Below, one piece after another: positions 10,935 to 26,896 of a stretch of DNA of 64,000 nucleotides. Both the position numbers and the translations under genes were made by a program. The first letter of the stretch is position 1. Each line of letters begins with the position of its first letter. The DNA is from Neptuniibacter caesariensis (GTDB lineage: Bacteria > Pseudomonadota > Gammaproteobacteria > Pseudomonadales > Balneatricaceae). A model generated the notes under the pieces. That model was not told where the DNA came from and searched no databases. It saw nothing but the letters and a program-made list of their open reading frames with translations. The stretch spans positions 532,493-596,492 of the forward strand of contig NZ_CH724126.1 of NCBI RefSeq assembly GCF_000153345.1, in the 5' to 3' direction.

Positions 10935-11080
10935 AACAGATCTCCTTACCAGCCAGCCGCTAATCTACTGTTTTCAAGAGGTTACTTAGATAGTGTAGAC
11001 AAGTTTTCAGTGATCCAGTTCATGGCATATTTTGTTGCGAACAAATCAACATGCCGTGGGGCACCCATTGGTTAGGGTTC

Positions 11081-11089
11081 TGGTATACT
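11081..11089 (+). promoter_or_regulatory. Extended -10 promoter element for ilvD
   Basis: TGG-TATACT is an extended -10 hexamer (TGnTATACT), 42 bases before the chosen ilvD ATG. No good -35 lies at the proper distance, as is common for extended -10 promoters. It lies inside the longer reading frame, which supports the downstream start of ilvD. Confidence 0.55.
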
Positions 11090-11130
11090 CGGAGATCGCT
11101 AATAAAACTATTACTCCAAGGGTCAACATC

Positions 11131-12972
11131 ATGCCGCAATATCGCTCTAAAACATCGACTGCGGGTCGTAATATGGCGGGTGCACGTGCGCTTTGGCGTG
11201 CAACGGGAATGAAAGATGAAGATTTCCACAAGCCAATTATCGCTGTAGCTAACTCTTTTACGCAGTTTGTTCCAGGTCACGTTCACCTGAAAGATATGGG
11301 GCAGCTGGTCGCGCGTGAGATTGAAAAAGCAGGTGGTGTAGCAAAAGAATTCAATACGATCGCGGTAGATGATGGTATCGCAATGGGCCATGATGGCATG
11401 CTTTACTCACTGCCCTCTCGTGACATCATTGCCGACTCCGTTGAATACATGGTTAATGCACACTGTGCAGATGCCATTGTATGTATCTCGAACTGTGACA
11501 AGATTACACCGGGCATGCTGATGGCGTCCATGCGACTGAACATCCCTGTAATCTTTGTTACAGGCGGGCCAATGGAAGCGGGTAAAACCAAGCTGGCTGA
11601 GCACAAGCTGGATCTGGTTGACGCGATGGTACTGGCAGCAGACCCAACTGCTTCTGATGAAGAAGTTGATGCGGTTGAGCGCTCTGCTTGCCCGACTTGT
11701 GGTTCTTGTTCGGGGATGTTCACAGCCAACTCGATGAACTGCTTGGCAGAAGCGTTGGGCCTGGCTCTACCTGGAAATGGTACTGTCGTTGCGACTCACG
11801 CTGACCGTGAAAACTTGTTCCTGGAAGCGGGTCGTACCATTGTTGATTTGGCGAAACGTTATTACGAGCAGGATGATGAATCTGTTCTGCCTCGTTCCGT
11901 AGGTTTCAAAGCGTTCGAAAACTGCATAACGCTTGATATCGCAATGGGTGGTTCTACCAACACTATCCTGCACTTGTTGGCTATTGCTCAGGAAGCAGAA
12001 ATTGACTTCACAATGGATGATATTGATCGCCTATCCCGTGTAGTACCGCAGTTATGTAAAGTTGCACCTAATACACCTGAATATCATATTGAAGATGTAC
12101 ACCGCGCAGGTGGCATCATGGGCATCCTTGGTGAGTTGGATCGCGCCGGTAAACTGCATACTGATGTTCCAACCGTACATGCGCCGACAATGAAGGAAGC
12201 ATTGGATAAGTGGGATATCATGCGTAACCCTTCGCCTGAGGTGCTAGAGTTTTATCGCGCAGGTCCTGCAGGTATTCCAACTCAGACCGCGTTTAGCCAA
12301 TCTACGCGTTGGCCAACGCTGGACGGTGACCGTGAAAACGGCTGTATCCGTTCATTAGAGAATGCGTTCTCTTTAGAAGGTGGTTTGGCTGTATTGAAAG
12401 GTAACATTGCGCTAGATGGTTGCGTGGTTAAGTCTGCTGGCGTAGATGAATCTATTCTTGTCTTCGAAGGCCCTGCACATATCACAGAGTCACAAGATGA
12501 AGCGGTTCAAAATATTCTGGATGACAAAGTGGTAGCGGGCGAAGTTGTTATCGTTCGTTACGAAGGCCCTAAAGGTGGTCCGGGTATGCAAGAGATGTTG
12601 TACCCAACCTCTTACATTAAGTCTAAAGGACTGGGTAAAGCTTGTGCCTTGCTGACTGATGGTCGTTTCTCTGGTGGTACTTCTGGTCTTTCAATTGGCC
12701 ACGTTTCCCCTGAAGCAGCGGCGGGCGGTGCAATCGGTCTGGTACGTAATGGCGATATTATTCGTATCGATATTCCTAACCGTACAATCGATGTTCTGCT
12801 ATCCGATGAGGAACTTGCTGAACGCCGTGCAGAGCAGGATAAGTTGGGCTGGAAACCAGTGGAAGAGCGTCCACGTAAAGTATCTGCAGCTCTGAAAGCA
12901 TTTGGCATGTTGGCAACCTCTGCGGATAAAGGTGCAGTACGTGACCTATCCAAACTGGAAGAATTATTCTAA
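11131..12972 (+). CDS. ilvD: Dihydroxy-acid dehydratase
   Basis: IlvD dehydrates 2,3-dihydroxy-isovalerate and its homologue to the 2-oxo acids that IlvE then aminates. The 613 residues equal the usual length when the ATG at 11131 is used. The open frame extends 33 codons further upstream, but those codons have no family similarity and contain the likely promoter; AAGGG lies about 9 bases before this ATG. Cluster motifs are present: NCDKITPGM (Cys122) and [17 protein letters not shown] (Cys187, 190, 193). The C-terminal [20 protein letters not shown] is the active-site signature. Codons favour those of well-expressed genes (GGT, CGT, CTG). A terminator follows directly. Confidence 0.97.
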
Positions 12973-12996
12973 ATATTTAGAGTAAATTCGATTTTG

Positions 12997-13020
12997 AAAG
13001 GCAGCTTCGGCTGCCTTTTT
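12997..13020 (+). terminator. Rho-independent terminator of ilvD
   Basis: GGCAGC-TTCG-GCTGCC (13000-13015), with AAA before and TTTTT after, is a stable tetraloop hairpin with a U-tract, 25 bases past the stop codon. Confidence 0.92.
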
Positions 13021-13077
13021 GCGTTTAAAGTATCAATAGAAATTAGCTAAGGTTACCTTAACTTTGCATAGTCGTTT

Positions 13078-13824
13078 TTAGGCAAAGAAAACTTGTGAAG
13101 CCTGCCATAACAGGCGGACAGCCATAAGGGTGATGACAGTTTTGAAAATAATCCTGAAGTGCTGCGTGGGAATTTTGTTGAGCATGCGAAGGCCCAGCCA
13201 GGTGCCAGCCATCCCACCTAAGACCATCAAAATCACCAGTGGCAACCATTGCCAGAAAGCAAACCCGACTAATGAAAAAACCAGCATTTTTAGCAGGTGT
13301 TGGAAGCTCATGCAGGCGGCAAAGGTTGCTGTAGTTGTGAGCTTTTCATAACTTTGTCGATGGACAAAACCCGCGACAAGCGGGCCTGTAGCGCCGACAA
13401 ACATCGATATAAATGTTGTGCCCGCTCCGGCGGCGACCTGGCCTTTCTCGCTCATCTGATGCTTTTTCGGCTTTGGTCCCCAGACGAGAAAGAGAATAAA
13501 GAGAGCGACACAGAGCTGAATCAGATAAAGGGGAAGCTGAATAACGACGAAAGACGCTACAAAAGCGCCGATCAAAGCCCCAGCGGTAAAGCTTTTTACC
13601 ATACACCAGTCAATGTGTTGGCGGGTCATAATGGCGCGATTACCGTTGGAACCAAGCTGGACCAGACCGTGCACGGGTATCAGGGCCGCTGGTGGTAAAA
13701 CCGAGGCAAGAATGGCCAAAAGCAGAACTCCGCCGCCAATTCCCATCGCTGCGGTTATAAACGAGGTTCCCGCAGCGCTGAAGATAAGAAAAAGAGCGAG
13801 CTCAAGATTATCTTGAAGTGGCAT
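13078..13824 (-). CDS. TSUP (TauE/SafE) family membrane exporter
   Basis: This 248-residue integral membrane protein has about eight hydrophobic helices. Repeated glycine-rich TSUP signatures are visible: AMGIGGGVLLLAILASVLPP near residue 27 and GATGPLVAGF in the second half (repeated-half topology). Families with this fold export sulfite, sulfoacetate or other small organosulfur anions; the substrate cannot be told from sequence alone. It follows the EAL/HDOD gene with no gap (stop and start are adjacent), so the two are probably cotranscribed, although no functional link is evident. It ends tail to tail with ilvD. Confidence 0.88.
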   Translation of the reverse strand: MPLQDNLELALFLIFSAAGTSFITAAMGIGGGVLLLAILASVLPPAALIPVHGLVQLGSNGNRAIMTRQHIDWCMVKSFTAGALIGAFVASFVVIQLPLYLIQLCVALFILFLVWGPKPKKHQMSEKGQVAAGAGTTFISMFVGATGPLVAGFVHRQSYEKLTTTATFAACMSFQHLLKMLVFSLVGFAFWQWLPLVILMVLGGMAGTWLGLRMLNKIPTQHFRIIFKTVITLMAVRLLWQASQVFFA

Positions 13825-15054
13825 CTACTTGTCGCTAAGCGATTTCATGACTTGTTGCGACCAGTTCAAACTATGTCGGTATGCAACCTCATAAAATTGT
13901 TGATCCAACAGCAGGTCAATCTGCTCAAAGTCACCGTCTTCGTATTTACTAACTTGCTCTAAAATTTGGCCAAGTTGCCCATCATAGTTTATTAGCGCAG
14001 CTTTAACGTCATTTTGCAGAGGCACTTGTTCTAATAGTTCTGGAAGTTCCATATCCAACAAGACATCCAGTTTAGAGAACAACCCGGTTATAAAATTATT
14101 GATAGGTTGATCCCGGCCAAGCATCTCAGCCAGTAGTTCACACATTCTCCCACGTATGAGCATGCTGCGAGTTAGCTCTACGGGTTTGTCTTGAGTATCA
14201 GTCACCAGGAATAAACTAACCCACTTACGAATCTGTTCGAATCCAAGGAGGCTAATGGCATGGGACAGAGATTCAATTTCGCGATTCAGGTTGAAAGCTG
14301 CTGAGTTGACTACTCTTAAAATTCTGTAGGTTAGCAGCGGATCATTAATAACAAGTTGCTCTACAGACTGAGCTGTCGCTGTAGGGCTTTGCAGTTCGAC
14401 CATCATCTGTAACAGTAGCATTTTACTGCTACCCAGCTTTTTACCTTTAACTGGTTCTGGCTTGCTTAAAAAATAACCCTGGAAGAGGGAGAAGCCTAGT
14501 TCGTAACACTTTCTAAACTCTTCCTGTGTTTCAACTTTATCTGCCAGGAGTTCAAGGTGGTATGGGCGAAGCTTTTTAACCAATTCAGGAATCGATTCTA
14601 AAGGAATTGATTGAATATCCATTTTCAAAATATGTACCAGATTTAAAAGTGGGTCATATTTTGGAACGGGTTTGTAGTCTGACAGAGCCAGCCTATAACC
14701 TAACTGATTGAGTTCTTTGACTCTTTCTATAAACTCAGGGGTGATATCTGAATGACCTAAGACTTCAAGAATAAAATGTTCTTTTGGAAGCTCTGGAAAG
14801 TGTTCTGACATGATTGTTTTGTCAGTGAGCTTGATATAACAGGGTAAAGATCTAACTTCCCCTTCCTGACAGATGCTGGCGTAAGTGTTCAGAATGACCG
14901 AAGATGTGGCCAGATGATCACTGAATTTCCGTTCAGTTGCTTCATCACCCCGGTAAAGTAAGGCGTAAGCAATAACATCCTGGCTTTTATTAAAGACAGG
15001 CTGGCGCGCGAGTAACAGGTCTAATGAATCTTCAGTATCGATTTCGCCGCTCAT
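13825..15054 (-). CDS. EAL-like and HDOD domain signalling protein
   Basis: The 409-residue protein joins an N-terminal EAL-type domain (residues about 10-200) to an HDOD domain (about 205-390, LVINDPLLTYRILRVVNSAA and LSHAISLLGFEQIRKWVSLF), an arrangement like B. subtilis YuxH. The EAL part is degenerate: the signature reads LEVLG instead of EALLR, and the metal-binding DDFG stretch reads SDYKP. It should not hydrolyse cyclic-di-GMP and more likely binds a ligand or partner. HDOD domains usually act in signalling complexes. The start was set at the ATG at 15054, which has GGAG six bases upstream; a TTG four codons earlier is less likely because this Shine-Dalgarno lies inside that extension. 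Confidence 0.87.
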   Translation of the reverse strand: MSGEIDTEDSLDLLLARQPVFNKSQDVIAYALLYRGDEATERKFSDHLATSSVILNTYASICQEGEVRSLPCYIKLTDKTIMSEHFPELPKEHFILEVLGHSDITPEFIERVKELNQLGYRLALSDYKPVPKYDPLLNLVHILKMDIQSIPLESIPELVKKLRPYHLELLADKVETQEEFRKCYELGFSLFQGYFLSKPEPVKGKKLGSSKMLLLQMMVELQSPTATAQSVEQLVINDPLLTYRILRVVNSAAFNLNREIESLSHAISLLGFEQIRKWVSLFLVTDTQDKPVELTRSMLIRGRMCELLAEMLGRDQPINNFITGLFSKLDVLLDMELPELLEQVPLQNDVKAALINYDGQLGQILEQVSKYEDGDFEQIDLLLDQQFYEVAYRHSLNWSQQVMKSLSDK

Positions 15055-15087
15055 TATTTTCTCCAAACCTCCAGAAGGTATCTTAGG

Positions 15088-15825
15088 TTATTTCTTTAAG
15101 AATCCACGTGATTGTAAGAAAGAAAGCATGTGTGGGCGAGCCTCTTTTTGTAGCATGCCAGAGATCTGCTCACTCCAGCTCATATCTTTCTGTCCGCCGG
15201 TGCGTGTTGCGTAATATTCTCTTACCTGATGGTCATATTCAGCGATCAGGTCTTTGTCTGAACTGTCATCGTAGGCGTCCTGTTTCAGAACAACTTCCAG
15301 CGGAAGGCGAGGTTTTACTTCTGGGTTCTGATCAGGATAACCCAGGCACATACCAAATACAGGGTAGACAAGTTCGGGAAGCTCAAGTGCTTCTGCGACT
15401 AGGTCTATTTTATTCCTTAGTCCGCCAATGTAGACCAAGCCAAGCCCTTCAGACTCGGCTGCAATAGCAACATTCTGCGCAAACAGACCGCAATCGACAG
15501 TGGCGGTGATAAATTGCTCGGTGAATCCGGAAAGCATCTCAGCTTCATGCATATCGCAACTGATCTTATGTCGGTTCATATCAGCGCAGAAGACCAGAAA
15601 AACCGGTGCTTCTTTTACATAAGCCTGATTACCGGCCCATTCTGACAGTGATTCGCGTTTGCCGGTGTCATTGACCTGAATAACCGTGCAGGCCTGAATA
15701 AAGCTTGAGGTCGCAGCTGCCTGGCCTGCGGCAACAAAACTATTTACTTGAGACTGGGAGACCGGCTGTTCGGTGAATTTGCGTATCGAACGATGAGAAT
15801 TGAGTAACTCAATGACCTGATTCAT
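15088..15825 (-). CDS. nfsA: NfsA-like oxygen-insensitive NADPH nitroreductase
   Basis: This FMN flavoprotein of the nitroreductase fold reduces nitro compounds and quinones with NADPH in related bacteria. From the ATG at 15825 it is 245 residues, close to E. coli NfsA (240). AGGA lies 5 bases upstream; the longer frame would add 26 residues that lack family similarity. Visible family features are the FMN-binding SHRSIRKF near the start, AAATSSFIQACTVIQV, GLGLVYIGGLRN and FGMCLGYPDQNPEVKPRLP. The C-terminal part includes YYATRTGG and a helix before the end. It lies 33 bp upstream of the EAL/HDOD gene in the same direction, and divergent from the radical SAM cluster. Confidence 0.87.
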   Translation of the reverse strand: MNQVIELLNSHRSIRKFTEQPVSQSQVNSFVAAGQAAATSSFIQACTVIQVNDTGKRESLSEWAGNQAYVKEAPVFLVFCADMNRHKISCDMHEAEMLSGFTEQFITATVDCGLFAQNVAIAAESEGLGLVYIGGLRNKIDLVAEALELPELVYPVFGMCLGYPDQNPEVKPRLPLEVVLKQDAYDDSSDKDLIAEYDHQVREYYATRTGGQKDMSWSEQISGMLQKEARPHMLSFLQSRGFLKK

Positions 15826-15918
15826 ATAGTTCCTGCTTACTTGGGTTTCTGCTGATGTTGTAACACAGCCTGACGCATTGCTGAAGAATAAATAATTCGT
15901 CATGGGCTTTGCACTAAG

Positions 15919-16710
15919 ATGTGTCCAGATGGGAACTATCAGGATAAGCTTAGGTCTATCAGTGAGTTATCGGTTAATGAGAAATTTCCTTTGCCTAATA
16001 TGTCAGACTCCGCAACAGAGAACGTTGCACTGTTGATCTTTTGCAAGCGGCCAAAACTGAATCAGGGAAAACAACGTATCGCAGAAACATTAGGGGCTAA
16101 GGCCGCTTATGATATTGCTGATCGCTTGTTGGCTTGTGCATTAGAAGATGCTCAGAATTGGCCTGGGCCAGTCGTACTATCGCCAGCGAGTGTTGATGAT
16201 ATCGGATGGGCTCAAGGCTTACTTAAACATTCAGATGTTACTGTTATTGCTCAGCCAGAGGGGAATCTGGGTGAACGGATTAATGCAATTGACCTTGAGC
16301 TACGACAACGTGGACATAACGGTATTGTTACGATTGGTACCGATGCGCCTATTCTTAACAACCTTTTTTATACCCAAGTGCTCAGCCGGTTAAAAGATTC
16401 AGATATTGTACTTAGTGCGGCTGAGGATGGAGGCGTCACTATGATGGCTTCGTCCGTGGCCTGGCCAGATATAAAAAATCTTCCCTGGAGCACCGACCGG
16501 TTAGGTCAGTCTCTAAACGATTTATGTGTTGAGGCAGGTTTAAACGTGGAATTTATCGATCCTAGCTATGATATTGATCTTGAAGGCGATCTGGTTAAGT
16601 TAATGGCAGATCTTAAGAGTGATCGAAGGCCGGCAAGGCAGAAACTGCTTAATTGTGTGCTCGAGATAGTAAATGATAGACAAAAGCTAGTGCAGGCAGG
16701 GGCTGAGTAA
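15919..16710 (+). CDS. DUF2064/CofC-like nucleotide-sugar transferase (TIGR04282 type)
   Basis: The protein has the GT-A/CofC-like fold of DUF2064. The N-terminal phosphate-binding run KRPKLNQGKQRIAETLG corresponds to the family K-x-P-x-x-G-x-x-K-T-R pattern, with KQR in place of KTR. GTDAP is the metal/nucleotide site, and AEDGGVTMMA is the conserved DGG element. This family (TIGR04282) is known to occur beside radical SAM genes of arsenosugar loci. Neither start has a good Shine-Dalgarno: the ATG at 15919 gives 263 residues, while the ATG at 16000 gives 236, nearer the family length and beginning just before the fold. It is the first gene of a four-gene cluster and its stop overlaps the next start (TAATG). 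Confidence 0.75.
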   Translation: MCPDGNYQDKLRSISELSVNEKFPLPNMSDSATENVALLIFCKRPKLNQGKQRIAETLGAKAAYDIADRLLACALEDAQNWPGPVVLSPASVDDIGWAQGLLKHSDVTVIAQPEGNLGERINAIDLELRQRGHNGIVTIGTDAPILNNLFYTQVLSRLKDSDIVLSAAEDGGVTMMASSVAWPDIKNLPWSTDRLGQSLNDLCVEAGLNVEFIDPSYDIDLEGDLVKLMADLKSDRRPARQKLLNCVLEIVNDRQKLVQAGAE

Positions 16711-17621
16711 TGCAAAGGATACGAACAGAAAACTGGTACAACACCCCACAAGGTGAAAGTCGTGGGTATATTGATCCATTCTCTTTGCGTGAACTGTGGT
16801 TTCATACGGGGACGGCGTGTAACTTACAGTGCCCATTTTGCCTGGAAGGGTCAGGCCCCGGAGATAATCGTCTTGAGCTGGTCAAATTTGATGATGTGAA
16901 ACCTTATATTGATGAAGCCCTTGAGTTAGGTGTGGAACAGTTTTCTTTTACCGGCGGTGAGCCTTTTCTGGCTAAACAGCTCGTTAAAATACTGGCTTAT
17001 GCCGCACAGTATAAGCCATGCATGGTACTGACCAATGGCACAGAGGCGCTTCAGCAGAGAATGGAAGAGGTAAAAAGCCTCTTGGAATGCCCCAATCAGA
17101 TTAGTTTTCGAGTGAGCATCGATAAGCCTTCTGCCGAAGCGCATGATGCCGGTCGTGGTGAAGGGAACTTTCTCAAGGCGTTAACCGGTCTGAAGATGCT
17201 TTATGATGCTGGGTTTAATGTCTCAGTTGCTCGGCATATGGATAAAGATGAAAACAGATCAGAAGTCGATGCTTTATATTCGGCGTTGTTTACCGAGCAT
17301 GGCCTTCCTGCAGATCTTAATATTGTCGCTTTCCCCGATTTTGCTACCCCAGGTAGTTTGCCCCAGGTTCCCCTGGTCACTACGGCATGTATGACGACCT
17401 ACCAGACCGAAGAGAGTCGGAAAGATTTCATGTGCGCTTTCAGTAAGATGGTTGTTAAGAATAAAGGCCGTATGCGAGTTTATGCCTGTACGTTGGTGGA
17501 TGATGATGAAGAGTATGACCTGGGGGCGAGTCTTAGAGAGAGCCTTGAAGAGAGGATTAGTATGAAACATCATCGCTGCTATAGTTGTTTCGCTTACGGT
17601 GCGTCCTGTAGTGAAAGTTAA
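16710..17621 (+). CDS. Radical SAM enzyme of unknown substrate with Cys-rich C-terminus
   Basis: The 303-residue protein carries the radical SAM cluster motif C-x3-C-x2-C at Cys37, Cys41 and Cys44 (TACNLQCPFCLEG). FTGGEPFL (80-87) is the SAM-binding GGE motif, and SIDKP follows near 136. It therefore should cleave S-adenosylmethionine to a 5'-deoxyadenosyl radical. The last 77 residues contain six cysteines (227, 242, 260, 290, 293, 300), enough to bind one or two auxiliary iron-sulfur clusters. It does not look like the ArsS family, and I cannot name its substrate. AGGGG precedes the start by 8 bases, and the gene overlaps the upstream transferase by one base. The next gene encodes a methylthioadenosine-type phosphorylase. 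Confidence 0.85.
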   Translation: MQRIRTENWYNTPQGESRGYIDPFSLRELWFHTGTACNLQCPFCLEGSGPGDNRLELVKFDDVKPYIDEALELGVEQFSFTGGEPFLAKQLVKILAYAAQYKPCMVLTNGTEALQQRMEEVKSLLECPNQISFRVSIDKPSAEAHDAGRGEGNFLKALTGLKMLYDAGFNVSVARHMDKDENRSEVDALYSALFTEHGLPADLNIVAFPDFATPGSLPQVPLVTTACMTTYQTEESRKDFMCAFSKMVVKNKGRMRVYACTLVDDDEEYDLGASLRESLEERISMKHHRCYSCFAYGASCSES

Positions 17622-17668
17622 GCTGTGGTGGCTCGGGGTTTTGAGATAAAGATTTTAAGGAGAAAGTT

Positions 17669-18520
17669 GTGTTAGCAATTATTGGTGGTACCGGGATCTA
17701 TCAGCTAGAGGGGCTTGAAGTGATGGGTGAGCATGAACTTGAAACACCTTTCGGTTCACCATCGGCTGCTATTACACAGGGTAAAATGGCTGATCAGGAC
17801 CTGTTGTTTCTACCTCGCCACGGTCGTCGTCATGAGTTGTTGCCATCTGAGGTTAACTATCGGGCGAATATCTGGGCGTTAAAGAAACTCGGTGCAACGC
17901 AGGTGATCGGTCTATCTGCGGTGGGAAGCCTGCAGGAAGAGATCGCCCCAGGAGATCTGTCATTGCCGGATCAGTACTTTGATTTTGTTAAAGGTAATCG
18001 AGAGAAAACGTTTTTTGGTAATGGGCTGGCAGCGCATGTTTCTACAGCGGAACCTACCAGCAAATGCCTGGCTGATGGTCTAGAAAAGGCCGCTGAGAGT
18101 GTCGGGCAAAAAGTTCATAGAAACAAAACCTATGCTTGTGTTGATGGTCCGAGGCTTGGAACCCGTGCTGAGAGTTTTTTCCTGCGCGGGGCTGCGGGTT
18201 GTGATCTGGTTGGTATGACAAACGTTCCTGAAGTATTCCTCGCACGGGAAGCGCAGCTTTGTTACTGCACTATAGCTATTGCTACGGATTATGATTGCTG
18301 GCTGGATGACCCCGCCCAGCACGTGAGCGTTGAACAGGTTATCGCCCGTTATGGCGCGAGTCTGGAAAAAGCTAAGCAAGTATTAACGGCTTATATTACA
18401 CAAGGGAATTCATGTGCTGATGATTGCAGCTGTCGTAAGAGCTTGGCGAGTGCGGTGCTGACACCAAGAGAGGTGCTGAATGCTGAGCAATTGGAACTAT
18501 TGGAACTGCTAAGTGCCTGA
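17669..18520 (+). CDS. S-methyl-5'-thioadenosine phosphorylase-type enzyme
   Basis: This family splits the N-glycosidic bond of a 5'-modified adenosine with phosphate, releasing adenine and a 1-phosphate sugar. At 283 residues it equals eukaryotic MTAP. Visible are the phosphate-binding GGTGIY (6-11) and RHGRRH (50-55), the VNYRANIWALK run, the ribose-site MTNVPEV (183-189), and ATDYDCW with Asp207 and Asp209, which favours an adenine over a hypoxanthine base. Three cysteines near the end (249, 253, 255; a C-x3-C-x-C) are an unusual tail. The start is GTG with AAGGAGA six bases upstream. In this cluster it may act on a deoxyadenosyl product of the radical SAM enzyme, or simply recycle methylthioadenosine. 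Confidence 0.85.
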   Translation: MLAIIGGTGIYQLEGLEVMGEHELETPFGSPSAAITQGKMADQDLLFLPRHGRRHELLPSEVNYRANIWALKKLGATQVIGLSAVGSLQEEIAPGDLSLPDQYFDFVKGNREKTFFGNGLAAHVSTAEPTSKCLADGLEKAAESVGQKVHRNKTYACVDGPRLGTRAESFFLRGAAGCDLVGMTNVPEVFLAREAQLCYCTIAIATDYDCWLDDPAQHVSVEQVIARYGASLEKAKQVLTAYITQGNSCADDCSCRKSLASAVLTPREVLNAEQLELLELLSA

Positions 18521-19223
18521 CCCCTTCCTATCTGTAGTTATCCCTGTCGGCCCCGAGGAATCTGAAATTACTCGGGGCTTGATCGATGATCTGCACCTCC
18601 TGCCTCAGCACAGTGAAATTATCTTTGTGGGTTGTGACGAAAAGTCTCAGGCGGGTTTGAAGCGGTCTACCACCGATCGAATTAAAGCTTATTCCGTGCA
18701 ATGGGCATATGCCGAGCCGGGGCGAGCAAAGCAGATGAATGCAGGTGCTAAGCAGGCAGCTGGACAGTACATTTGGTTTCTGCACATTGATAGCCGCTTC
18801 TCTCCAAAGCTGATCGATACGCTTGTGGGGAATTTACGGTGCTATCCTGAGCGTTTGCACTATTGCCTGTTGGCATTTATGGATGATGGTCCCTCTAGCA
18901 TGGAGATGAATAGCTTAGGTGCTAATTTACGCTCTCTATGCCTGGGCGTGCCATTTGGTGATCAGGGGCTTCTTATTAGCAAGCAATTGTTTGCTGAGGT
19001 GGGAGGTTACCCGGAAACCGCACCCTATGGTGAAGATCATCTGTTCGTCTGGTACGCTCGACAGCATGGCATCAGGCTTAAATGTTGCCGAAGCAGGCTA
19101 CTGACCAGTGCTCGCAAATATAAGCGTAAAGGTTGGTTACCGCTTACGCTTTTGTACCAAAAATTATGGATAAAGCAGGCCTGGCCGGAATTTATTCGCC
19201 TGTTAAAAAAGCGCTATTTCTGA
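18513..19223 (+). CDS. Family 2 glycosyltransferase (TIGR04283 type)
   Basis: This 236-residue GT-A protein has SVVIPVGPE at the N-terminus, GRAKQMNAGA (70-79), HIDSRF in place of the usual DxD (91-96), FGDQGLL and GGYP. The GRAKQMNAGA and HxDS elements are characteristic of the TIGR04283 family, which occurs near radical SAM genes of arsenosugar loci. The start is a GTG that overlaps the end of the phosphorylase gene by 8 bases, so it is the last gene of the four-gene unit. It ends tail to tail with the TVP38 fusion, overlapping by 10 bases. The acceptor is not known. Confidence 0.82.
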   Translation: MPDPFLSVVIPVGPEESEITRGLIDDLHLLPQHSEIIFVGCDEKSQAGLKRSTTDRIKAYSVQWAYAEPGRAKQMNAGAKQAAGQYIWFLHIDSRFSPKLIDTLVGNLRCYPERLHYCLLAFMDDGPSSMEMNSLGANLRSLCLGVPFGDQGLLISKQLFAEVGGYPETAPYGEDHLFVWYARQHGIRLKCCRSRLLTSARKYKRKGWLPLTLLYQKLWIKQAWPEFIRLLKKRYF

Positions 19224-21352
19224 CCTCTCATCCAGTTATGGTATTTTTCTACCCAGCCTAGAAGTCCTTGAGGCGCATTGGCGCGTTTCCATTCGCCTGC
19301 TGTGTATTTGTTTGCCTCACTAAGAGTTGGGTAAATATGAATGGTGCCAAGAATTTTATTCAAGCCCAGGCCATGCTTCATCGCAGTAACATACTCTGTG
19401 ATTAGTTCGCCCGAATGTGGTCCGACAATCGTGGCTCCTAGAATACGGTCTTTGCCTGGCACCGTGAGGACTTTTACAAACCCATGGTTGTCACTATCTG
19501 CTATCGCTCTATCGAGTTCTTCCAGATCAAACCGGGTAACCTCATAGGCAATGTTTTGCTCTTTCGCTTCCAGTTCATTTAGTCCGACTCGGGCGACCTC
19601 TGGATCAGTAAAGGTGGCGGCTGGAATGACGGAGTAATCCACTTTGAATTTCTTAAACTTGCCAAACAGGGCGTTAACCGCAGCATACCAAGCCTGATGG
19701 GCTGCTGCATGGGTAAACTGATAAGGCCCTGCAACATCACCACAGGCGTATATATTTGGGTATTTAGTTTGTAAGTACTCGTTAACTTCAAGTGTTCCGT
19801 CAGCCTTGCTGGTTATGCCCAGATTATCCAGACCGAAACCTTCAATATTAGCCTGCCGGCCTGTCGCTATAAGCAGTTCATCGAAAGCAATCTCTTCAGT
19901 CTGCCCCTGATATTCGCATATCAGCAGTTTTTCCCCGTCACGTTCTACAAACTCCCGCATCTTTCTCTCAGGTAAAATTGATATACCTTCATCTTTGAAA
20001 CGAGCAGCGACCAGTTCAGATACATCCGAGTCCTCTTTAGGCATAATGTGCGAGCCGCGAAGAACGATGGATACCTGAGAGCCGAAACGGGCAAAACTCT
20101 GACTTAACTCACAGCCAATCGGTCCACCGCCCAGTACCAATAAACGCTTTGGCCGTTCGCGTATCTTCCAGAGGTTATCTGAAGTCAGCGGGGACATCGC
20201 TTCAATATTTTTAATCGCAGGAATTCGCGGTCGGGCGCCAGTGGCAATAACGATGTTCTTGGTTGTGATGATCTCGCCGTTGACCACCACCTCGTAAGGG
20301 TTAAGAATTTGAGCTGAGCCCTGAACACAGTCAACGCCTAAGCCTGTATAACGCTCGATAGAGTCATGTGGCTCAACAGTTTCAACTACCTTAGAAACCC
20401 GCTCCATCACCTCGGCAAAATTAAATTCGACCTCGCTTTTAGCGATGCCGTACTTCTCGCTATTTCGGCTCTCGGCGAGAAAACGTGCAGAGCGTATCAG
20501 CGCCTTGGAAGGTACGCATCCTGTGTTCAAACAGTCGCCCCCCATCTTGTGTTTTTCAATCAGGCTGACTTTGGCTTTAACAGCTGCGGCAATATAGGAG
20601 GTAACCAATCCGGCTGAACCTGCGCCTATGACAACGATATTTGTATCAAATTTTTCAGGCTTTTTTATGCCAGCATAGACTTTTCGCGCTTTAAGTAATT
20701 CGATCACTTTCTTGGCTATCAGAGGGAAAATACCCAGCAGGGTAAAGGACAATATAATTCCCGGAGATAAAATACCTGACAGGCTTTCGAGTTGACCAAG
20801 TTGAGTGCCGGCGTTTACGTAAACAATGGTGCCGGCAAACATGCCTAGCTGGCTCACCCAGTAGAATGTCCAGACCTTAATTGAGGTTAAGCCCATGCCG
20901 AGGTTGATAACGAAGAATGGGAAAATGGGCACCAGGCGTAGCGTGAAGAGATAGAAGGCACCTTCGCGCTTTACGCCTTCATTAATAGATTCAAGTTGTT
21001 TGCCAAAACGCTGTTGAATGGAATCTCTGAGTAAGAAACGTGAAAAGAGGAAGGCTAAGGTGGCTCCAAGGGTGCTGGCAAACGAAATAATGATTAACCC
21101 GGTCCATAGACCAAACAATGCGCCACCCACGAGTGTCATGATTGTTGCGCCGGGCAGTGAAAGTCCTGTCACAAGTACATAAATGGCAAAGAAAATTGCA
21201 ATGGTTAATACAGGATTAGCCTGGTAATAATCCGCGAAAGCCTGCTGGTTATCTTTAATATATTCCAGACTAAAAAACTGACCCAGGTCGAACATAAAAA
21301 AAGAAACGACTGCAAGGAATAGAATGGAGATCAGAGCGAGTTTTTTGTTCAT
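19214..21352 (-). CDS. TVP38/TMEM64 membrane domain fused to FAD-dependent disulfide oxidoreductase
   Basis: Residues 1 to about 225 form a DedA/TVP38-type membrane domain (several helices; central LFGLWTGLIIISFASTLGAT and the FFVINLGMG loop). From about 235 the protein is a class I pyridine-nucleotide disulfide oxidoreductase: FAD motif VVIGAGSAGLVTSY, redox-active GGDCLNTGCVPSKAL (C-x4-C, near 270-285), NAD motif VLGGGPIGCELS, ATGR, and a dimerisation domain ending in HIYPTLSEAN. It resembles mercuric reductase or lipoamide dehydrogenase but lacks the paired C-terminal cysteines of MerA. The His-Tyr-Pro-Thr stretch supports a full-length reductase. Such fusions are known in marine bacteria; the substrate is not. 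It faces the transferase cluster, overlapping by 10 bases. Confidence 0.9.
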   Translation of the reverse strand: MNKKLALISILFLAVVSFFMFDLGQFFSLEYIKDNQQAFADYYQANPVLTIAIFFAIYVLVTGLSLPGATIMTLVGGALFGLWTGLIIISFASTLGATLAFLFSRFLLRDSIQQRFGKQLESINEGVKREGAFYLFTLRLVPIFPFFVINLGMGLTSIKVWTFYWVSQLGMFAGTIVYVNAGTQLGQLESLSGILSPGIILSFTLLGIFPLIAKKVIELLKARKVYAGIKKPEKFDTNIVVIGAGSAGLVTSYIAAAVKAKVSLIEKHKMGGDCLNTGCVPSKALIRSARFLAESRNSEKYGIAKSEVEFNFAEVMERVSKVVETVEPHDSIERYTGLGVDCVQGSAQILNPYEVVVNGEIITTKNIVIATGARPRIPAIKNIEAMSPLTSDNLWKIRERPKRLLVLGGGPIGCELSQSFARFGSQVSIVLRGSHIMPKEDSDVSELVAARFKDEGISILPERKMREFVERDGEKLLICEYQGQTEEIAFDELLIATGRQANIEGFGLDNLGITSKADGTLEVNEYLQTKYPNIYACGDVAGPYQFTHAAAHQAWYAAVNALFGKFKKFKVDYSVIPAATFTDPEVARVGLNELEAKEQNIAYEVTRFDLEELDRAIADSDNHGFVKVLTVPGKDRILGATIVGPHSGELITEYVTAMKHGLGLNKILGTIHIYPTLSEANKYTAGEWKRANAPQGLLGWVEKYHNWMRGQK

Positions 21353-21423: not shown

Positions 21424-22227
21424 TCAAAGATACTGATCAATTCCCTGCACAGCTTTTTTCTTATCGCTATTGATTACATCCTGTAATCTCTGCCAGTTTT
21501 CCTGCTCCTGAGAGCGGTCATGCTCTTTATGCCACAAGTGCAAAACCGTGGTGGCCAGGCGCCCATTGAGCCTGCAAACATTGTTGCGTAGTAGTCTTAT
21601 GACGAGATCAGAATCTTCATATCCCCAGCCAATGAAAGCTTCGTCTAACCCGTTTGCTTTAATCAGGTCAGTTTTCCATACCCCTAGGTTGCAGCTCTTA
21701 ACTCCCTGCCATTTTTGACTGTTCCTTTTTCTAAGTGGGCCTAGCGGAATGTATCTAAGGGGCCATGTTCTATTTATTTGATCTTCCTTGAAGCGTTTTG
21801 CGGGCCAGCATTCAGCTTCAATTTGTTCGGCAAGTAACTCTGTGGTAAATGACTCGGTCAATAAGGCCCTGTTACCTGCTACAAAGTAGCCAGGGGTTGC
21901 TAGTTTCTGGTGTCGTTTGATGAAATCGGGACGAAGTAGGCAGTCGCCATCCAGAAAGATCAGATAGTCTCCACTGGCTGCAGCGGCTGCTTTATTTCTG
22001 ATACGAGCCGCTTGAAACCCATCATCTTCCTGCCATATGTGCTTAACAGCAAAGGGGGCTTTATGCTGCCATTTGGAGATAAGGTCGCGAGTTTCTGAGC
22101 GTGAACCATCATCGGCAATAACAACTTCAGATGGAAGAAGCTGCTGATTGCTAACCGAGCGTAAAACAGCGTCGAGTGCTTCAGGCCAGTTATAGGTTGT
22201 TATGATCAGGGATATTTCAGCGTTCAT
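21424..22227 (-). CDS. Family 2 glycosyltransferase, LPS region
   Basis: The 267-residue protein has a GT-A fold: SLIITTYNWPEALD start, VIADDGS, FLDGDCLLRP (DxD-like metal site) and the C-terminal galactosyltransferase-like motif WGYEDSDLVIRL (acid residues of the catalytic base). It overlaps the WaaE-type gene by 11 bases and is the last gene of an eight-gene minus-strand run of LPS genes. It probably transfers a sugar to the lipopolysaccharide core or another surface glycan. Donor and acceptor cannot be told from sequence. Confidence 0.82.
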   Translation of the reverse strand: MNAEISLIITTYNWPEALDAVLRSVSNQQLLPSEVVIADDGSRSETRDLISKWQHKAPFAVKHIWQEDDGFQAARIRNKAAAAASGDYLIFLDGDCLLRPDFIKRHQKLATPGYFVAGNRALLTESFTTELLAEQIEAECWPAKRFKEDQINRTWPLRYIPLGPLRKRNSQKWQGVKSCNLGVWKTDLIKANGLDEAFIGWGYEDSDLVIRLLRNNVCRLNGRLATTVLHLWHKEHDRSQEQENWQRLQDVINSDKKKAVQGIDQYL

Positions 22228-22975
22228 TCTGTTTCCCTTGTTCGCATAACAAAGCTAGCTTTGCGTATTTATAATAGGTTCCTTCAGCGTTAGAGATTGC
22301 CAGCATTAAACCATGTTTGCCATCTAGAAACCCTCTGCGAATAAGGTAGGTACGAATGAAGGACCAGAACCCTTTGTATATAGCTTTACCGACAGTAGCT
22401 TTTTTGCCGCGAGCATAGAGTTGCTGAGCACCTAGCGTGGAATAATGATCAACTTTGCTAAGCACTTGTTCGAGATTGCTGAAAGAGTAGTGAAGAAGCG
22501 GTTCAGACAGCTTCCCCTCACTGCCTTTTACGACTACTTTTTCATGAACTTTGTCGTCAGTAAATCGGCTCTGAGCTTTTTTGAACAGGCGTAATACATA
22601 GTCTGGATACCAACCCGCATGGTCAATGAAACGTCCACAATACTGGGATCGTCTGGGGATCAAATACCCATCATGTGAACCATTCTTGACGGTTTCTATA
22701 ATTTCCCGCATCAATTCATCTGAAACCCGTTCATCCGCATCAATTGAAAATACCCAGTCATGCGATGCTTGTTGTAATGCACGATTCTTCTGCGGGCCAA
22801 AGCCTGGCCAGTCCGTGTCTACCAGTTTGCAGTTAGCATAGCCTCGACAGATCTCTTGCGTACCATCATTGCTTCCAGAGTCTACAACGATGATTTCATC
22901 GGCCCAGGAAACTGAATTGAGGCAGTCCTGGATGTTGTTCGCTTCATTTTTGGTAATAATGATGACTGAAATCAT
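22217..22975 (-). CDS. WaaE/KdtX-like family 2 glycosyltransferase
   Basis: The 252-residue protein has the pattern of WaaE (KdtX) core glycosyltransferases: SVIIITKNEANNIQDCLNSV at the start, VVDSGSNDGT, DWPGFGPQKNRAL, and FSIDADERVS as the DxD metal site. It continues with GRFIDHAGWYPDYVLRLF and DKVHEKV. In Klebsiella and Serratia, WaaE adds glucose to the first heptose of the inner core. The same role here is likely but not proven. It overlaps its downstream neighbour and follows the polysaccharide deacetylase by 17 bp in the operon. The HEK and SID motifs are intact, so it should be active. Confidence 0.86.
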   Translation of the reverse strand: MISVIIITKNEANNIQDCLNSVSWADEIIVVDSGSNDGTQEICRGYANCKLVDTDWPGFGPQKNRALQQASHDWVFSIDADERVSDELMREIIETVKNGSHDGYLIPRRSQYCGRFIDHAGWYPDYVLRLFKKAQSRFTDDKVHEKVVVKGSEGKLSEPLLHYSFSNLEQVLSKVDHYSTLGAQQLYARGKKATVGKAIYKGFWSFIRTYLIRRGFLDGKHGLMLAISNAEGTYYKYAKLALLCEQGKQNER

Positions 22976-22992
22976 ATCTCTCGACTCAGGTG

Positions 22993-23718
22993 CTAGCCAC
23001 GCTTATCTTCATAATTAGATAAACATTTCAATAGAAAAAGGTGTGGTAATGTGTGATGAACTACGGGAATACGTGGTAATTCAAGTGATGGGCTTTCAAT
23101 CGGTATAACCCTGCCACGTTTCATGGTGGTTGATGTTGTAAACCCAGCTGCACGAGTGGCTTCAATAACACTTTTATTATATTTGCCATATGGATAGCAA
23201 AAATGCTCTACAGGGTAGTCGAATAGTGTTTCCAGAGTTTGCTTAGAGCCAATAATTTCGCGAGTAAGTTCTTCAGGTGCGCAGGTTGTTAGGTCAACAT
23301 GATGTTCAGAATGAGCGCCGATATCCATACCCGCACTTAGCCAGCTGAAAACTTCATTCTCAGTCATCAGCTCATTTCGGGCAATCCCTTTATCTTCGTC
23401 CCAATCATTATACTGCCCGAGCTTATTACTAATCAGGTAGCAGGTTGCGGAGAAACCTAGCTTAGTAAGAACAGGAAGGGCATCGTTTAGGTTGTTGCGA
23501 TAGCCATCGTCAAAGGTGAGACCTACAACCTTACCTACTTTTTCCCCAGTAAGGTATGGGTGAAGATCCTTCATGCTTAGCCCTTTATAGCCAAGCACCT
23601 TTAACATTCTCATTTGTAAAGCAAAGCGTTTAGGTGGCACGTGCAGAGAGCGCATGACCGAATCTTTGGGTACCTTGGTAATGCTGTGGTACATCAAAAT
23701 TGGAATTTTATGACTCAT
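22993..23718 (-). CDS. Polysaccharide deacetylase family protein
   Basis: This 241-residue NodB-homology protein probably removes N- or O-acetyl groups from a surface glycan. The metal-binding motifs are visible: TFDDGY (near residue 70) and the two-histidine GAHSEHHVDL (near 135), then FCYPYGKYN and a late RIPVVHH. It starts ILMYHSI, a common N-terminus for NodB-type deacetylases. No signal peptide or membrane segment is evident, so it may act in the cytoplasm on a lipid-linked or nascent sugar. It overlaps the upstream transferase by 4 bases (ATGA), which suggests that it acts in the same pathway of LPS core assembly. Confidence 0.84.
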   Translation of the reverse strand: MSHKIPILMYHSITKVPKDSVMRSLHVPPKRFALQMRMLKVLGYKGLSMKDLHPYLTGEKVGKVVGLTFDDGYRNNLNDALPVLTKLGFSATCYLISNKLGQYNDWDEDKGIARNELMTENEVFSWLSAGMDIGAHSEHHVDLTTCAPEELTREIIGSKQTLETLFDYPVEHFCYPYGKYNKSVIEATRAAGFTTSTTMKRGRVIPIESPSLELPRIPVVHHTLPHLFLLKCLSNYEDKRG

Positions 23719-24566
23719 GCTTTCTTCCGCTTGTTTAGCTTCTGTTTGATAATGGTTAAAGGGCCCCGCTTCAGCTTGACCGCGCAGGCATTGGTGAGTT
23801 GTTCTGCAAAAGTTTTGCCGCTATTTTCCCGGAAAAAACAACGTAAAACTGATTCAGCATGAGCCTTTTTCCCTGATGTAGAGTAGTGCGAAACAAACTC
23901 TTTACCCTCAACCAGCGAGTATTGAGTTTGTAATGCCTCGGCAAGAGCAAATTGCTCAATCGTATGTATGTCGGTCTCGTGCATGAGTGCCAGCATTAGC
24001 TCATCCGCATAGTCCAGCATGTTAAACATTGATGGGCGTAAACCAATCATCAATGACCCCCACATCGTGGAGGTGCTGGACAATGAGTAGGTGCCAAAAT
24101 TTGGCAGTTGTAGCGTTTTGTTAGCCATGCCGTCTTGCAGAAGTGAAAACTTTTTCTTCTTATTGACGTTACCTTCATTTAAGAACATCAGTGCCTGATT
24201 GTCCTTAATTAGCCCAAAGAGTTGATTGGCATTTTGGGTGAAATAGGTATCGGCATCTATAAACAGTAGCTTGCTGTTTTCAGCAAACTCATAGTTCTCT
24301 GTAATGTAACGCATCCCTCGGTTCTTGATGCGAAAGTGGTACTTCCCATCCATTGACCAGGCATTCTGCATCGCTTCTGTTATGCGTGCTGCCTCGACAG
24401 GGTAGCCCTCAAATAAATCAGGCTTTTCTGTCAGAACAATAATTTTAGGTGGGGTATCACTAGAGGCTAAACTATTCAGAAACGAGAGGATGCTGAATTT
24501 CGCCCCGTTGTAATAAACCTCATCTTCGCCATATACGATATACAGAAGTACCTGTTGATCACTCAT
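23715..24566 (-). CDS. GT-A glycosyltransferase-like protein, LPS region
   Basis: The 283-residue protein has a beta-strand-rich N-terminus (VLLYIVYGEDEVYYNG), then LLFIDADTYF, a DxD motif of GT8-like type that binds metal and nucleotide sugar. The pattern FGTYSLSSTSTMWGSLMIGL follows. The C-terminus is basic (KQKLNKRKKA), which would suit contact with the membrane surface. I do not recognise a specific family. It overlaps the O-antigen-ligase-like gene by 8 bases and the deacetylase by 4, so all three are likely translated together. A role in LPS core synthesis is inferred from its place. Confidence 0.68.
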   Translation of the reverse strand: MSDQQVLLYIVYGEDEVYYNGAKFSILSFLNSLASSDTPPKIIVLTEKPDLFEGYPVEAARITEAMQNAWSMDGKYHFRIKNRGMRYITENYEFAENSKLLFIDADTYFTQNANQLFGLIKDNQALMFLNEGNVNKKKKFSLLQDGMANKTLQLPNFGTYSLSSTSTMWGSLMIGLRPSMFNMLDYADELMLALMHETDIHTIEQFALAEALQTQYSLVEGKEFVSHYSTSGKKAHAESVLRCFFRENSGKTFAEQLTNACAVKLKRGPLTIIKQKLNKRKKA

Positions 24567-25809
24567 GATGCTTTACCTCAGCCCTCGAGCTTTCGCTGAA
24601 AGGAAGGGATTGCCATTTTTTCCCCGCTATCAAAGCGATGAGCAACATAAAGTAAATTCCGTCACCATGATCCAGGAATGAGGAGTTAAAAAGGCAGGAT
24701 ATCGTTACTAATAAAAATAGCGCTGAGCAAAACTGCTTTTGCTCTGATTGATAGTCTGAACTTTTTAGTAGAATGCTAAGCACAAATGCGACAAATAAAG
24801 TCGCACCGATTAATCCTGTTTGGACCGCTATTTGGAGAAACTCATTGTGTGCATTAACGGTGGGACTCCAGAACGTTCCCACTTCTGAATGTTTTGCGGC
24901 ATAAGCTTCTGGGAAGCAACCAAGACCACAGCCGATAAACCAATTCTGCAGAAATGTCAGAAAGGACAGAATATAGTACTCAGCACGTATATCTATTTGT
25001 TGAATAGCGGTCATCGATATAGGTCCAGAGCTGCTAAGTGCGTTAAGGTTTCCCAATATTCGAATGTGTGATAAATCCGCTAGAGAATAAATCAATCCAC
25101 AAGCTATGATGAATAGAGCTAAGAGTATACAAAGTGTCTTCAGGTTCAGTTTCTGCCAGAAGAATAGAGCGCTGAGAGAGATGATTAGAATATATCCTGT
25201 TCTGCCATTTTCAATAAAGAACAAGTTATGAAGAGTGATTAGAAATAGGGTGGCAAACACCCATTTATACTTTTTGAAAATGACTGAAGCCTGAAGTGAC
25301 ATATAACCATAAAATGACATGGTGACACCATGGAAAATACGATTCCCTATGCTGTGATTATTTTCCCAGTAGTTCACGATGTCGTAGTGAATTAGATACG
25401 AGAACAACAATGAGAGAGTGAGTGCTGAGTAAAGTGTTGCAAGGGTAAAGTTACGATATTTTTCGTAACTAAAGTACAGCATGAACAAAGGGATAAATAG
25501 GAACTCTCTGTATTTCGAGAGAATTTTGGTACTGTACTTTCCTTCTGCATCGGACCAACTGATGCTCACCGCCATAAAAAGAAAAATCAGTGTGCCTATC
25601 AGTGCTGTTTTATTATCTCTTAGTAAAGTGGGAAACTGACGGATCTGCTTGGTAAATAGTAAGAAAATAACTGGAAGGCCCAGTAGGATATTGTGTGCCG
25701 CATTGCCCAGAAGGGGAATGCTAAAAGCCCCCGCCACGGTCATCCAGGCTCCAATGGTAAACAGTAAACCTGGCTGTTCTTTTTCAAGAGTTGGATTTAT
25801 TGTGGTCAT
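24559..25809 (-). CDS. O-antigen ligase-like (WaaL/Wzy_C) membrane protein
   Basis: The 416-residue protein is almost entirely hydrophobic, with about 11-12 helices. It contains the Wzy_C/WaaL loop SPTVNAHNEFLQIAVQTGLI in the second half, with the histidine that is conserved in ligases. It probably joins O-antigen or another lipid-linked glycan to the lipid A core at the periplasmic face. The DNA is visibly more AT-rich than the msbA or lysA genes. It overlaps the next gene and lies 7 bp after the GT4 gene. A polymerase (Wzy) function is the alternative, but no other O-antigen genes such as wzx or wzz are in the window. Confidence 0.8.
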   Translation of the reverse strand: MTTINPTLEKEQPGLLFTIGAWMTVAGAFSIPLLGNAAHNILLGLPVIFLLFTKQIRQFPTLLRDNKTALIGTLIFLFMAVSISWSDAEGKYSTKILSKYREFLFIPLFMLYFSYEKYRNFTLATLYSALTLSLLFSYLIHYDIVNYWENNHSIGNRIFHGVTMSFYGYMSLQASVIFKKYKWVFATLFLITLHNLFFIENGRTGYILIISLSALFFWQKLNLKTLCILLALFIIACGLIYSLADLSHIRILGNLNALSSSGPISMTAIQQIDIRAEYYILSFLTFLQNWFIGCGLGCFPEAYAAKHSEVGTFWSPTVNAHNEFLQIAVQTGLIGATLFVAFVLSILLKSSDYQSEQKQFCSALFLLVTISCLFNSSFLDHGDGIYFMLLIALIAGKKWQSLPFSESSRAEVKHHE

Positions 25810-25816
25810 GGTTGTC

Positions 25817-26896
25817 TTACTGTCCCTTTAGTATTTCGTAATACAGGCAGCTATGCTGATCTGCAAGTGTTTCCCAGGTTAGATTTAGCGGCGCGACCTG
25901 TTCCATTTTCAGGGTTTTTTGCACAGCATTCTGCCAGGCGTCTAATTTCTTGAGCGGTAAAACATAACCCGCTTCGTTCTCAATTAATTCAGCAATGCCA
26001 CAATGATCAGAGACAATTACGGGTTTGTCGGCTGCATTTGCTTCGGCAACGACCATCCCAAAAGGTTCTGAGGTTGCCGGATGGATCAGAACATCAATAC
26101 GGGGTAAAACTTCCTCGGCTGAAGACCAGCCGAGCAATTTGTATTGTTCCGTAGGCCAGTCTTTGAATAGGTGTAACACTTCTTCAGGCTGTGGACCTGC
26201 AACGAAAAAAGTTAATGCCTCATCAGCAAGGATTAGAGGCTTTAAAACTTGGCAGGCAAACTCCAGCCCTTTTCTCTGCCATTCTTTGCCAATGAAGCCA
26301 ATCGAAGCTCCGCTACTCAGCTTTGGGAGAGCGAAAAAGGCTTCACTGACCCCCGGGTAAGCGGGGGGCCTGATTTTTTCTTTAACCTGTGGGTAAAGGC
26401 GGATAAGGTTTTCAGCGACCATTTTTGAATTTGGCAGAACCGCAGATACATTCGGTGATAGGATTTCGCGCTTCTCGAGGAATTCCCAGGCTTTAATTCG
26501 GGGCGATAAGCAGTCAAAAAACCGTTTCTTTCGGTCCAGAATTGACGGGCCGTGAAATGTTGTAACCTGATGCTTTTCGCAGCGTTCATGGCTATGCACG
26601 ACCCAGCCGGAAGAATCGATGCTGTCTAGGTAATCACTAACTTTCTGTGAAAATTTCTGCATAGATCGCCATCGAGGTTTAGGCTTTATTGTGCCCAGTT
26701 CGATGACGTCTAAATCTGCTGAAAAAACATCATGAGCTTTTTCACAGATTATTTTTGTAGGTTGTTTGGCTTTAGCCAGAGCATGGGTAAGCTCCCACAC
26801 GTAGCGTTCCATACCGCCGGTGCGACCATATTGCCGAACTATGTGAATTGAGGCCGTTGTTTGAGCTGAATAATCAGGACTTGTGTTCGTTGTCAT
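25817..26896 (-). CDS. GT4-family glycosyltransferase, LPS core
   Basis: The 359-residue protein has the GT-B fold typical of GT4. The N-terminal domain begins IHIVRQYGRTGGMERYVWEL, a glycine loop that binds the donor phosphate region, and VTTFHG lies mid-domain. The C-terminal domain has GFIGKEWQRKGLE, HPATSEPFGMVVAEA with the E-x7-E signature, and AELIENEAGYVLPL. It resembles WaaG-type core transferases but the sugar specificity is open. The start overlaps the end of the neighbouring GT2-like gene by 23 bases. The protein probably acts on the cytoplasmic side of the inner membrane. Confidence 0.85.
   Translation of the reverse strand: MTTNTSPDYSAQTTASIHIVRQYGRTGGMERYVWELTHALAKAKQPTKIICEKAHDVFSADLDVIELGTIKPKPRWRSMQKFSQKVSDYLDSIDSSGWVVHSHERCEKHQVTTFHGPSILDRKKRFFDCLSPRIKAWEFLEKREILSPNVSAVLPNSKMVAENLIRLYPQVKEKIRPPAYPGVSEAFFALPKLSSGASIGFIGKEWQRKGLEFACQVLKPLILADEALTFFVAGPQPEEVLHLFKDWPTEQYKLLGWSSAEEVLPRIDVLIHPATSEPFGMVVAEANAADKPVIVSDHCGIAELIENEAGYVLPLKKLDAWQNAVQKTLKMEQVAPLNLTWETLADQHSCLYYEILKGQ

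Follow-up and report, generated by a model that had tools for sequence, protein, structure and literature searches.

The system analysed here lies in a 64,000-nucleotide stretch of Neptuniibacter caesariensis DNA (contig NZ_CH724126.1, positions 532,493 to 596,492; hereafter the window). Four plus-strand genes encode a TIGR04282/DUF2064-like protein, a radical S-adenosylmethionine (SAM) protein, a member of the 5′-methylthioadenosine (MTA) phosphorylase (MTAP) family and a TIGR04283/GT2-like transferase, and a TVP38/VTT membrane domain fused to a flavin adenine dinucleotide (FAD) disulphide reductase is encoded on the facing strand. Based on this gene content, we consider the operon likely to direct the synthesis of an arsenosugar-type compound by means of a radical SAM enzyme that is ArsS-like but divergent, and the acceptor is most probably arsenic. 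The initial annotation of this DNA, which proposed an undescribed pathway with an unknown acceptor, was too open on this point. In some relatives, arsM adjoins the radical SAM gene, three of these clusters also include an arsenate-reductase-like (ArsC-like) gene, and ArsS loci carry the same partner genes. Arsenic is therefore the best-supported acceptor, and the cluster is best regarded as a variant of arsenosugar biosynthesis.

Linkage of the radical SAM family to arsM

Searching genome_contigs with the radical SAM protein as the query yielded 98 relatives, of which the best 80 were kept; the nearest (77–83% identity) are from Neptuniibacter. Partner genes were counted as matches of at least 60 bits lying up to 6 kb from the radical SAM gene, with no edge filter and with some stretches being short. 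At least one partner occurs in 75 of the 80 loci. TIGR04282-like and TIGR04283-like genes are each present in 70 loci (either one in 72), TVP38 in 31, the FAD reductase in 34, ArsM in 30 and an ArsC-like gene, named by its sequence signature, in 3. When the count is confined to the 47 loci that have 6 kb of sequence on either side of the gene, TIGR04282-like genes occur in 41, TIGR04283-like genes in 42, TVP38 in 19, the FAD reductase in 22, ArsM in 16, MTAP in 10 and the ArsC-like gene in 2.

The proteins of approximately 350 residues that adjoin the radical SAM gene in relatives are AS3MT-type arsenite methyltransferases, and in 30 of the 80 loci such a gene lies no more than 2.6 kb away (centre to centre). 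The one such protein compared with solved structures, from the close Neptuniibacter relative L033, matched arsenite methyltransferases, the best being 5evj with an E-value of 2.6e-104, and the ArsM of L095 scored 172.3 bits against the bacterial ArsM model, under its cut-off of 263. Four cysteines preceding the C-terminal pair (C24, C52, C145 and C195) are invariant in 20 aligned rows. The ArsM-bearing loci belong to gamma-, beta- and alphaproteobacteria, among others. Their genes are arranged in no fewer than three different orders, and this diversity speaks against inherited synteny as the sole reason for the linkage. In L033, arsM sits between the TIGR04282-like and radical SAM genes, and the order in L039, L040 and L070 is TIGR04282, ArsM, radical SAM, ArsC-like, MTAP, TIGR04283. 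Members with arsM are interspersed in the tree among members without it, and L033 is the nearest neighbour of the window protein (support 98/48). Moreover, the five loci without a local partner (L069, L072, L077, L086 and L091) are all from genomes that carry ArsM elsewhere.

Relationship to ArsS

The radical SAM protein has 303 residues (PF04055, 68.7 bits) and, judged by its sequence, is most likely a remote and divergent relative of ArsS. All 37 aligned family members match the ArsS model TIGR04167, with a best E-value of just 8.6e-17. A profile-profile alignment with ArsS extends over 271 columns (E-value 1.1e-15, 24% identity) with the C-terminal cysteines in register, and when five further radical SAM proteins from the same genome served as controls, they aligned with ArsS over the N-terminal part only. 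The six extra cysteines pointed out in the initial annotation were confirmed: C227, C242, C260, C290 and C293 are invariant in the 37 members and C300 is nearly so. In addition, C104 is kept by every one of the 30 closer members, and C127 is not among the conserved positions. All 16 ArsS rows and 35 of the 37 rows of the family carry the CX3CX2C motif together with the C-terminal cysteine pattern, which is absent from all five control proteins; the two remaining family rows end early in the alignment. A first version of the pattern, which required a residue between H and C, matched none of the 16 ArsS rows and was then widened. Because the widening followed inspection of the ArsS sequences, the pattern is fitted to both groups and does not constitute an independent test.

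In the tree, the 16 ArsS rows form one clade (100/100) on a very long branch, and the radical SAM family forms a separate group. The window protein falls outside the ArsS clade, in a tree with long branches and a bootstrap that is not settled. The possibility that this protein is a plain ArsS was rejected on its tree position and its TIGR04167 score of 48.3 bits (cut-off 300), and no ArsS over the cut-off was found anywhere in its genome. The earlier judgement that the protein does not look like ArsS thus holds for the score but not for the C-terminal cysteine pattern, which is the same, and the comparison with TIGR04167 suggested there fell short of the cut-off.

The gene neighbourhoods of ArsS were compared in twenty loci, eight of which (L166–L173) come from the order or class of the window. 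Among these eight, TIGR04282-like genes occur in seven, TIGR04283-like genes in six, TVP38 with the FAD reductase in six, MTAP in two and AS3MT-type ArsM in two. Two loci, L166 and L167, contain the entire gene set of the window, with ArsS replacing the radical SAM gene. The other twelve (L160–L165 and L174–L179) gave a weaker ArsM match (six loci), an FAD match (two) or no profile (four). Because ArsS loci from this order or class carry the same partners, it seems that ArsS and the radical SAM enzyme of the window occupy equivalent places in their clusters.

The distribution of both enzymes was examined in one set of 299 sampled genomes from the phylum, with E-value cut-offs of 1e-20 for the radical SAM protein, 1e-40 for ArsS, 1e-20 for TIGR04283 and 1e-30 for ArsM. 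The radical SAM enzyme was detected in 24 genomes, ArsS in 114, TIGR04283 in 153 and ArsM in 81. No genome contains both the radical SAM enzyme and ArsS (Fisher p 8e-6). TIGR04283 is present in 123 of the 138 genomes with either enzyme vs 30 of the 161 with neither. At a stricter cut-off (E-value of at most 1e-100), AS3MT-type ArsM occurs in 8 of the 24 radical SAM genomes vs 21 of the 275 others (p 0.0007), and 25 of the 29 genomes with AS3MT-type ArsM carry the radical SAM enzyme or ArsS. Among the 24 radical SAM genomes, six have close members (at least 54% identity), two of which encode AS3MT-type ArsM, and 18 have remote or partial ones.

Proposed pathway

According to PMC12159101, arsenic is adenosylated by a radical SAM enzyme in oxo-arsenosugar biosynthesis, and ArsS acts together with ArsM in Synechocystis (PMC8552651). 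For the present operon, the analysis shows the gene content, the tight packing and the recurring linkage to arsM and to the partners of ArsS; each chemical step, the product and the substrate in this genome are inferred. Methylated arsenic(III) would come from ArsM in many relatives and, in the genome of the window, perhaps from scavenging; the radical SAM protein would join a 5′-deoxyadenosyl radical to it. The MTAP-family phosphorylase would then remove adenine to give 5-arseno-ribose 1-phosphate, the DUF2064/CofC-like protein would activate this arsenosugar 1-phosphate to a nucleotide sugar, and the GT2-like protein would transfer the arsenosugar to a glycerol-type acceptor. Phosphorolysis would yield a sugar 1-phosphate, which fits CofC-like activation followed by GT2 transfer. 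The TVP38-FAD fusion may hold arsenic in the trivalent state, and we propose that it may serve as a reductant or membrane partner. The order of deoxyadenosyl addition, base removal and sugar transfer in the initial annotation fits these gene findings as a putative scheme.

The first gene product scores 105.9 bits with TIGR04282 (cut-off 134), a clear homologue, and 50.5 bits with PF09837 (cut-off 25.8); it keeps the DGG and GxDxP motifs in 12 aligned sequences, and the sole solved chain matched at an E-value of at most 0.01 is 3cgx, a "putative nucleotide-diphospho-sugar transferase" (8.9e-15). A TIGR04282 gene and a gene called moaA are reported on a predicted mobile island of Aromatoleum (PMC8801600), and they are possibly the same pair of TIGR04282-like and radical SAM genes. 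The fourth gene product is likewise a clear homologue of its family (TIGR04283, 166.6 bits, cut-off 182), and its PF00535 score of 23.6 bits is barely above the cut-off. MTAP scores 277.4 bits with TIGR01694 (cut-off 274.85) and has TDYDCW at residue 206, and the fusion protein matches VTT (87.7 bits) and Pyr_redox_2 (207.4 bits) and has CLNTGC at residue 274. The earlier domain assignments hold, and both transferase names, TIGR04282 and TIGR04283, stay below their cut-offs.

We also put forward, tentatively, a wider possibility: that a second, uncatalogued family of adenosyl-arsenic synthases replaces ArsS across Proteobacteria, that strains lacking arsM, such as this one, use methylarsenicals from seawater or arsenite directly, and that the route passes through arsenoribose 1-phosphate, from which the DUF2064 protein makes a nucleotide-arsenosugar. 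Should this be true, the arsenic-deoxyadenosyl bond can be formed by a second enzyme family, and many Proteobacteria could be overlooked arsenosugar makers, because none of the NCBIfam models compared names this radical SAM family. The operon offers candidates for the steps after ArsS, namely, a phosphorylase by which the sugar phosphate is retained, a CofC-like activator and a glycosyltransferase, and genomes without arsM allow a route to bacterial arsenosugars from scavenged methylarsenic to be tested. No publication on this cluster was found among the titles and abstract openings listed, which does not prove it to be unpublished.

Counter-evidence and alternative explanations

Several observations weigh against the arsenosugar assignment. 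In addition to the low TIGR04167 score, one control radical SAM protein scores 98.7 with ArsS vs 112.3, over the barrel alone, and hhalign alignments of single sequences extend to the C-terminus in three tests out of ten, none of them with the window protein. The best 50 of 113 Foldseek matches (E-value of at most 0.001) of the AlphaFold2 model (mean predicted local distance difference test score 86) are radical SAM proteins of many kinds, with SkfB, BlsE, MoaA and SuiB at the top; the ArsS profile itself matches eight solved chains, none of which is named ArsS. Both transferases score under their family cut-offs, and the word "arsenosugar" in the names TIGR04282 and TIGR04283 is probably itself based on association. 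In the 299-genome sample, ArsM at the loose cut-off is not linked to the radical SAM enzyme (9/24 vs 72/275, p 0.24), the strict cut-off was chosen after a gap was visible in the score list, and the Fisher tests ignore the relatedness of the genomes. The radical SAM family has a main remote clade (33–38% identity), from which 13 loci (L145–L157) were retrieved. Ten of them have no nearby partner; the remaining three have TIGR04282, TIGR04283 and the FAD reductase, and two of these also have ArsM.

The missing arsM is the main uncertainty of the arsenic reading. With two models, ArsM was not found in the 98.14% complete genome of the window (best scores 68.2 and 48.4 bits). A hidden ArsM was rejected after inspection of the matches above 37.6 bits: by eye, the four best matches of one model and the second best of the other resemble UbiE, BioC, UbiG and two further methyltransferases of class I. 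The earlier statement that no ArsM is seen therefore holds for the whole genome, including the check for arsM elsewhere, but not for the many relatives with ArsM at the locus. Fifty related loci have no local arsM, and 49 of their genomes, many of them metagenome assemblies of unstated completeness, were searched whole. ArsM was found elsewhere at an E-value of at most 1e-30 in 17 of them (16 at 1e-100 or below, one with an internal stop) and was not found at that cut-off in the other 32. Altogether, 46 of the 79 genomes of relatives have ArsM, 30 at the locus and 16 elsewhere at 1e-100 or below. Because arsM was not found in the genome of the window, the arsenical may be scavenged; in members lacking arsM generally, the substrate may be scavenged methylarsenic, arsenite or something else.

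A further point against the assignment concerns MTAP. Joint conservation of all four genes, which the initial annotation proposed as a check, holds for the TIGR04282-like, radical SAM and TIGR04283-like genes, which travel together, but MTAP is present in just 12 of the 80 loci, and the other clusters would need a different base-removing enzyme. According to one explanation, which is compatible with the arsenosugar reading and which we regard as rather unlikely, MTAP merely salvages 5′-deoxyadenosine or MTA, and another enzyme opens the arsenic nucleoside. The available text of PMC8102628 describes salvage of 5′-deoxyadenosine by promiscuous enzymes through 5-deoxyribose 1-phosphate and cites, by title, MTA phosphorylase activity on 5′-deoxyadenosine, and 68 of the 80 loci, some of which are short stretches, showed no MTAP match inside the 6-kb range. 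However, MTAP occurs repeatedly, in differing gene orders, both in ArsS clusters (2 of 20 loci) and in those of the radical SAM family. The genome of the window also encodes a separate MTA/S-adenosylhomocysteine nucleosidase, mtnA was not found in it, and its MTAP is the sole TIGR01694 match. Methionine salvage thus does not explain the gene and is not favoured, and MTAP may be dedicated to the pathway of this operon.

A second explanation retains the operon logic but replaces arsenic as the acceptor by sulfur, selenium or some organic compound, the arsM neighbours in relatives marking a different branch of the family. The lack of a detected arsM in this genome and in the 32 others is consistent with this view, as are the separation of the radical SAM group from ArsS, itself on a very long branch, and the best NCBIfam match, which is to the Rv1681 family NF049973 (109.5 bits, cut-off 380); among the best 25 of 46 NCBIfam models, none exceeds its cut-off. 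We nevertheless consider it improbable, given that arsM-bearing members are interspersed in the tree, the nearest being L033, and that the partner genes are of the same kinds as in ArsS loci.

Slightly more improbable still is a decaying remnant that has lost arsM and is no longer a working pathway, an explanation compatible with an arsenic origin. The gap between the TIGR04282 and radical SAM profile matches is 50–66 bp in six Neptuniibacter loci without arsM vs 1086 bp in L033, and the matches in L109 are broken into pieces; however, none of the four genes of the window is damaged, and several genera maintain this arrangement with no arsM alongside and with the cysteines conserved. L109 itself (Aliamphritea spongicola, 9350–16800), in which the TIGR04282, radical SAM and FAD matches are fragmented and whose genome has an ArsM match with an internal stop, is possibly a decaying copy of the pathway.

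Finally, it is very improbable that the enzyme uses arsenic but moves another SAM fragment (3-amino-3-carboxypropyl), as in arsinothricin biosynthesis: ArsL is likewise a radical SAM enzyme with a gene adjoining arsM, but it has 428 residues and three conserved cysteines (PMC8552651, available text) vs 303 residues and six extra cysteines here, and the sugar-handling and MTAP-type partners of the present operon are common to ArsS loci.

Gene layout and neighbourhood

All five genes described in the initial annotation were located at its positions (Table 1), with a single exception at the start of gene 1. The TIGR04282-like and radical SAM genes share 1 base, 47 bp precede MTAP, and MTAP overlaps the TIGR04283-like gene by 8 bp; because the four genes overlap or nearly touch, a single operon is suggested. 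No consensus promoter or terminator was found in a scan. Gene 1 probably starts at the ATG at 16000 (M28) rather than at 15919, as the resulting 236 residues compare with 224–250 in seven Neptuniibacter relatives. The divergent nitroreductase probably starts at 15825, which gives 245 residues and matches five of the seven relatives. The earlier starts would leave just 15 bp between the two genes.

Table 1. Features of the predicted arsenosugar-type locus, in window coordinates.
Feature	Position	Strand	Basis
NfsA-like oxygen-insensitive nitroreductase	15088–15903 (likely start 15825)	-	PRK10765, 305.5 bits
Probable intergenic region between divergent nitroreductase and operon	15826..15999	.	Start-codon comparison with relatives
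TIGR04282/DUF2064-like protein, CofC-related	16000..16710 (earlier start 15919..16710)	+	TIGR04282, PF09837, start comparison
Radical SAM protein, probable remote ArsS relative	16710..17621	+	PF04055; CX3CX2C and C-terminal MC...C...H-x-C-x2-C-x6-C
MTA-phosphorylase (MTAP) family protein	17669..18520	+	TIGR01694
TIGR04283/GT2-like transferase	18513..19223	+	TIGR04283, PF00535
TVP38/VTT membrane domain fused to FAD disulphide reductase	19214..21352	-	VTT, Pyr_redox_2

A nitroreductase gene adjoins the radical SAM cluster in 7 of the 80 loci, all from Neptuniibacter. Beyond the TVP38-FAD gene, the minus strand of the window (21424–28691) carries a run of glycosyltransferase-, polysaccharide deacetylase-, O-antigen-ligase- and lauroyltransferase-like genes, as named by eye. 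Near the radical SAM gene of relatives, TonB-like genes were recognised by eye in 13 loci and ExbD-like and ExbB-like genes in 10 each. Such genes lie downstream in L065, L066, L080, L087, L096, L097, L100, L107, L108 and others, and in the nine loci named here they are encoded on the strand opposite to the radical SAM gene; this neighbourhood is perhaps synteny only.

Comparison with known systems

The best NCBIfam match, the Rv1681 family, covers residues 28–202 of the window protein and leaves the C-terminus uncovered. In the adenosylhopane pathway, HpnH performs a radical adenosylation and the phosphorylase HpnG then takes off adenine, which is the same logic as that proposed here; the two systems differ in the enzyme, because the HpnH model TIGR03470 gives the window radical SAM protein only 36.2 bits (cut-off 225.05). 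The ArsL/ArsM cluster for arsinothricin resembles the relatives of the window in placing a radical SAM gene beside ArsM and in forming a carbon-arsenic bond, but it differs in the SAM fragment used and in its one predicted iron-sulfur cluster, and the available text of PMC8552651 describes no sugar genes. With ArsS (TIGR04167), the window protein shares the CX3CX2C motif, the C-terminal arrangement MC...C...H..C-x2-C...C, a model length of 303 and the same partner genes, and it differs in its score (48.3 of 300 bits), its 24% identity, its separate clade and the absence of any genome with both enzymes among the 299 sampled.

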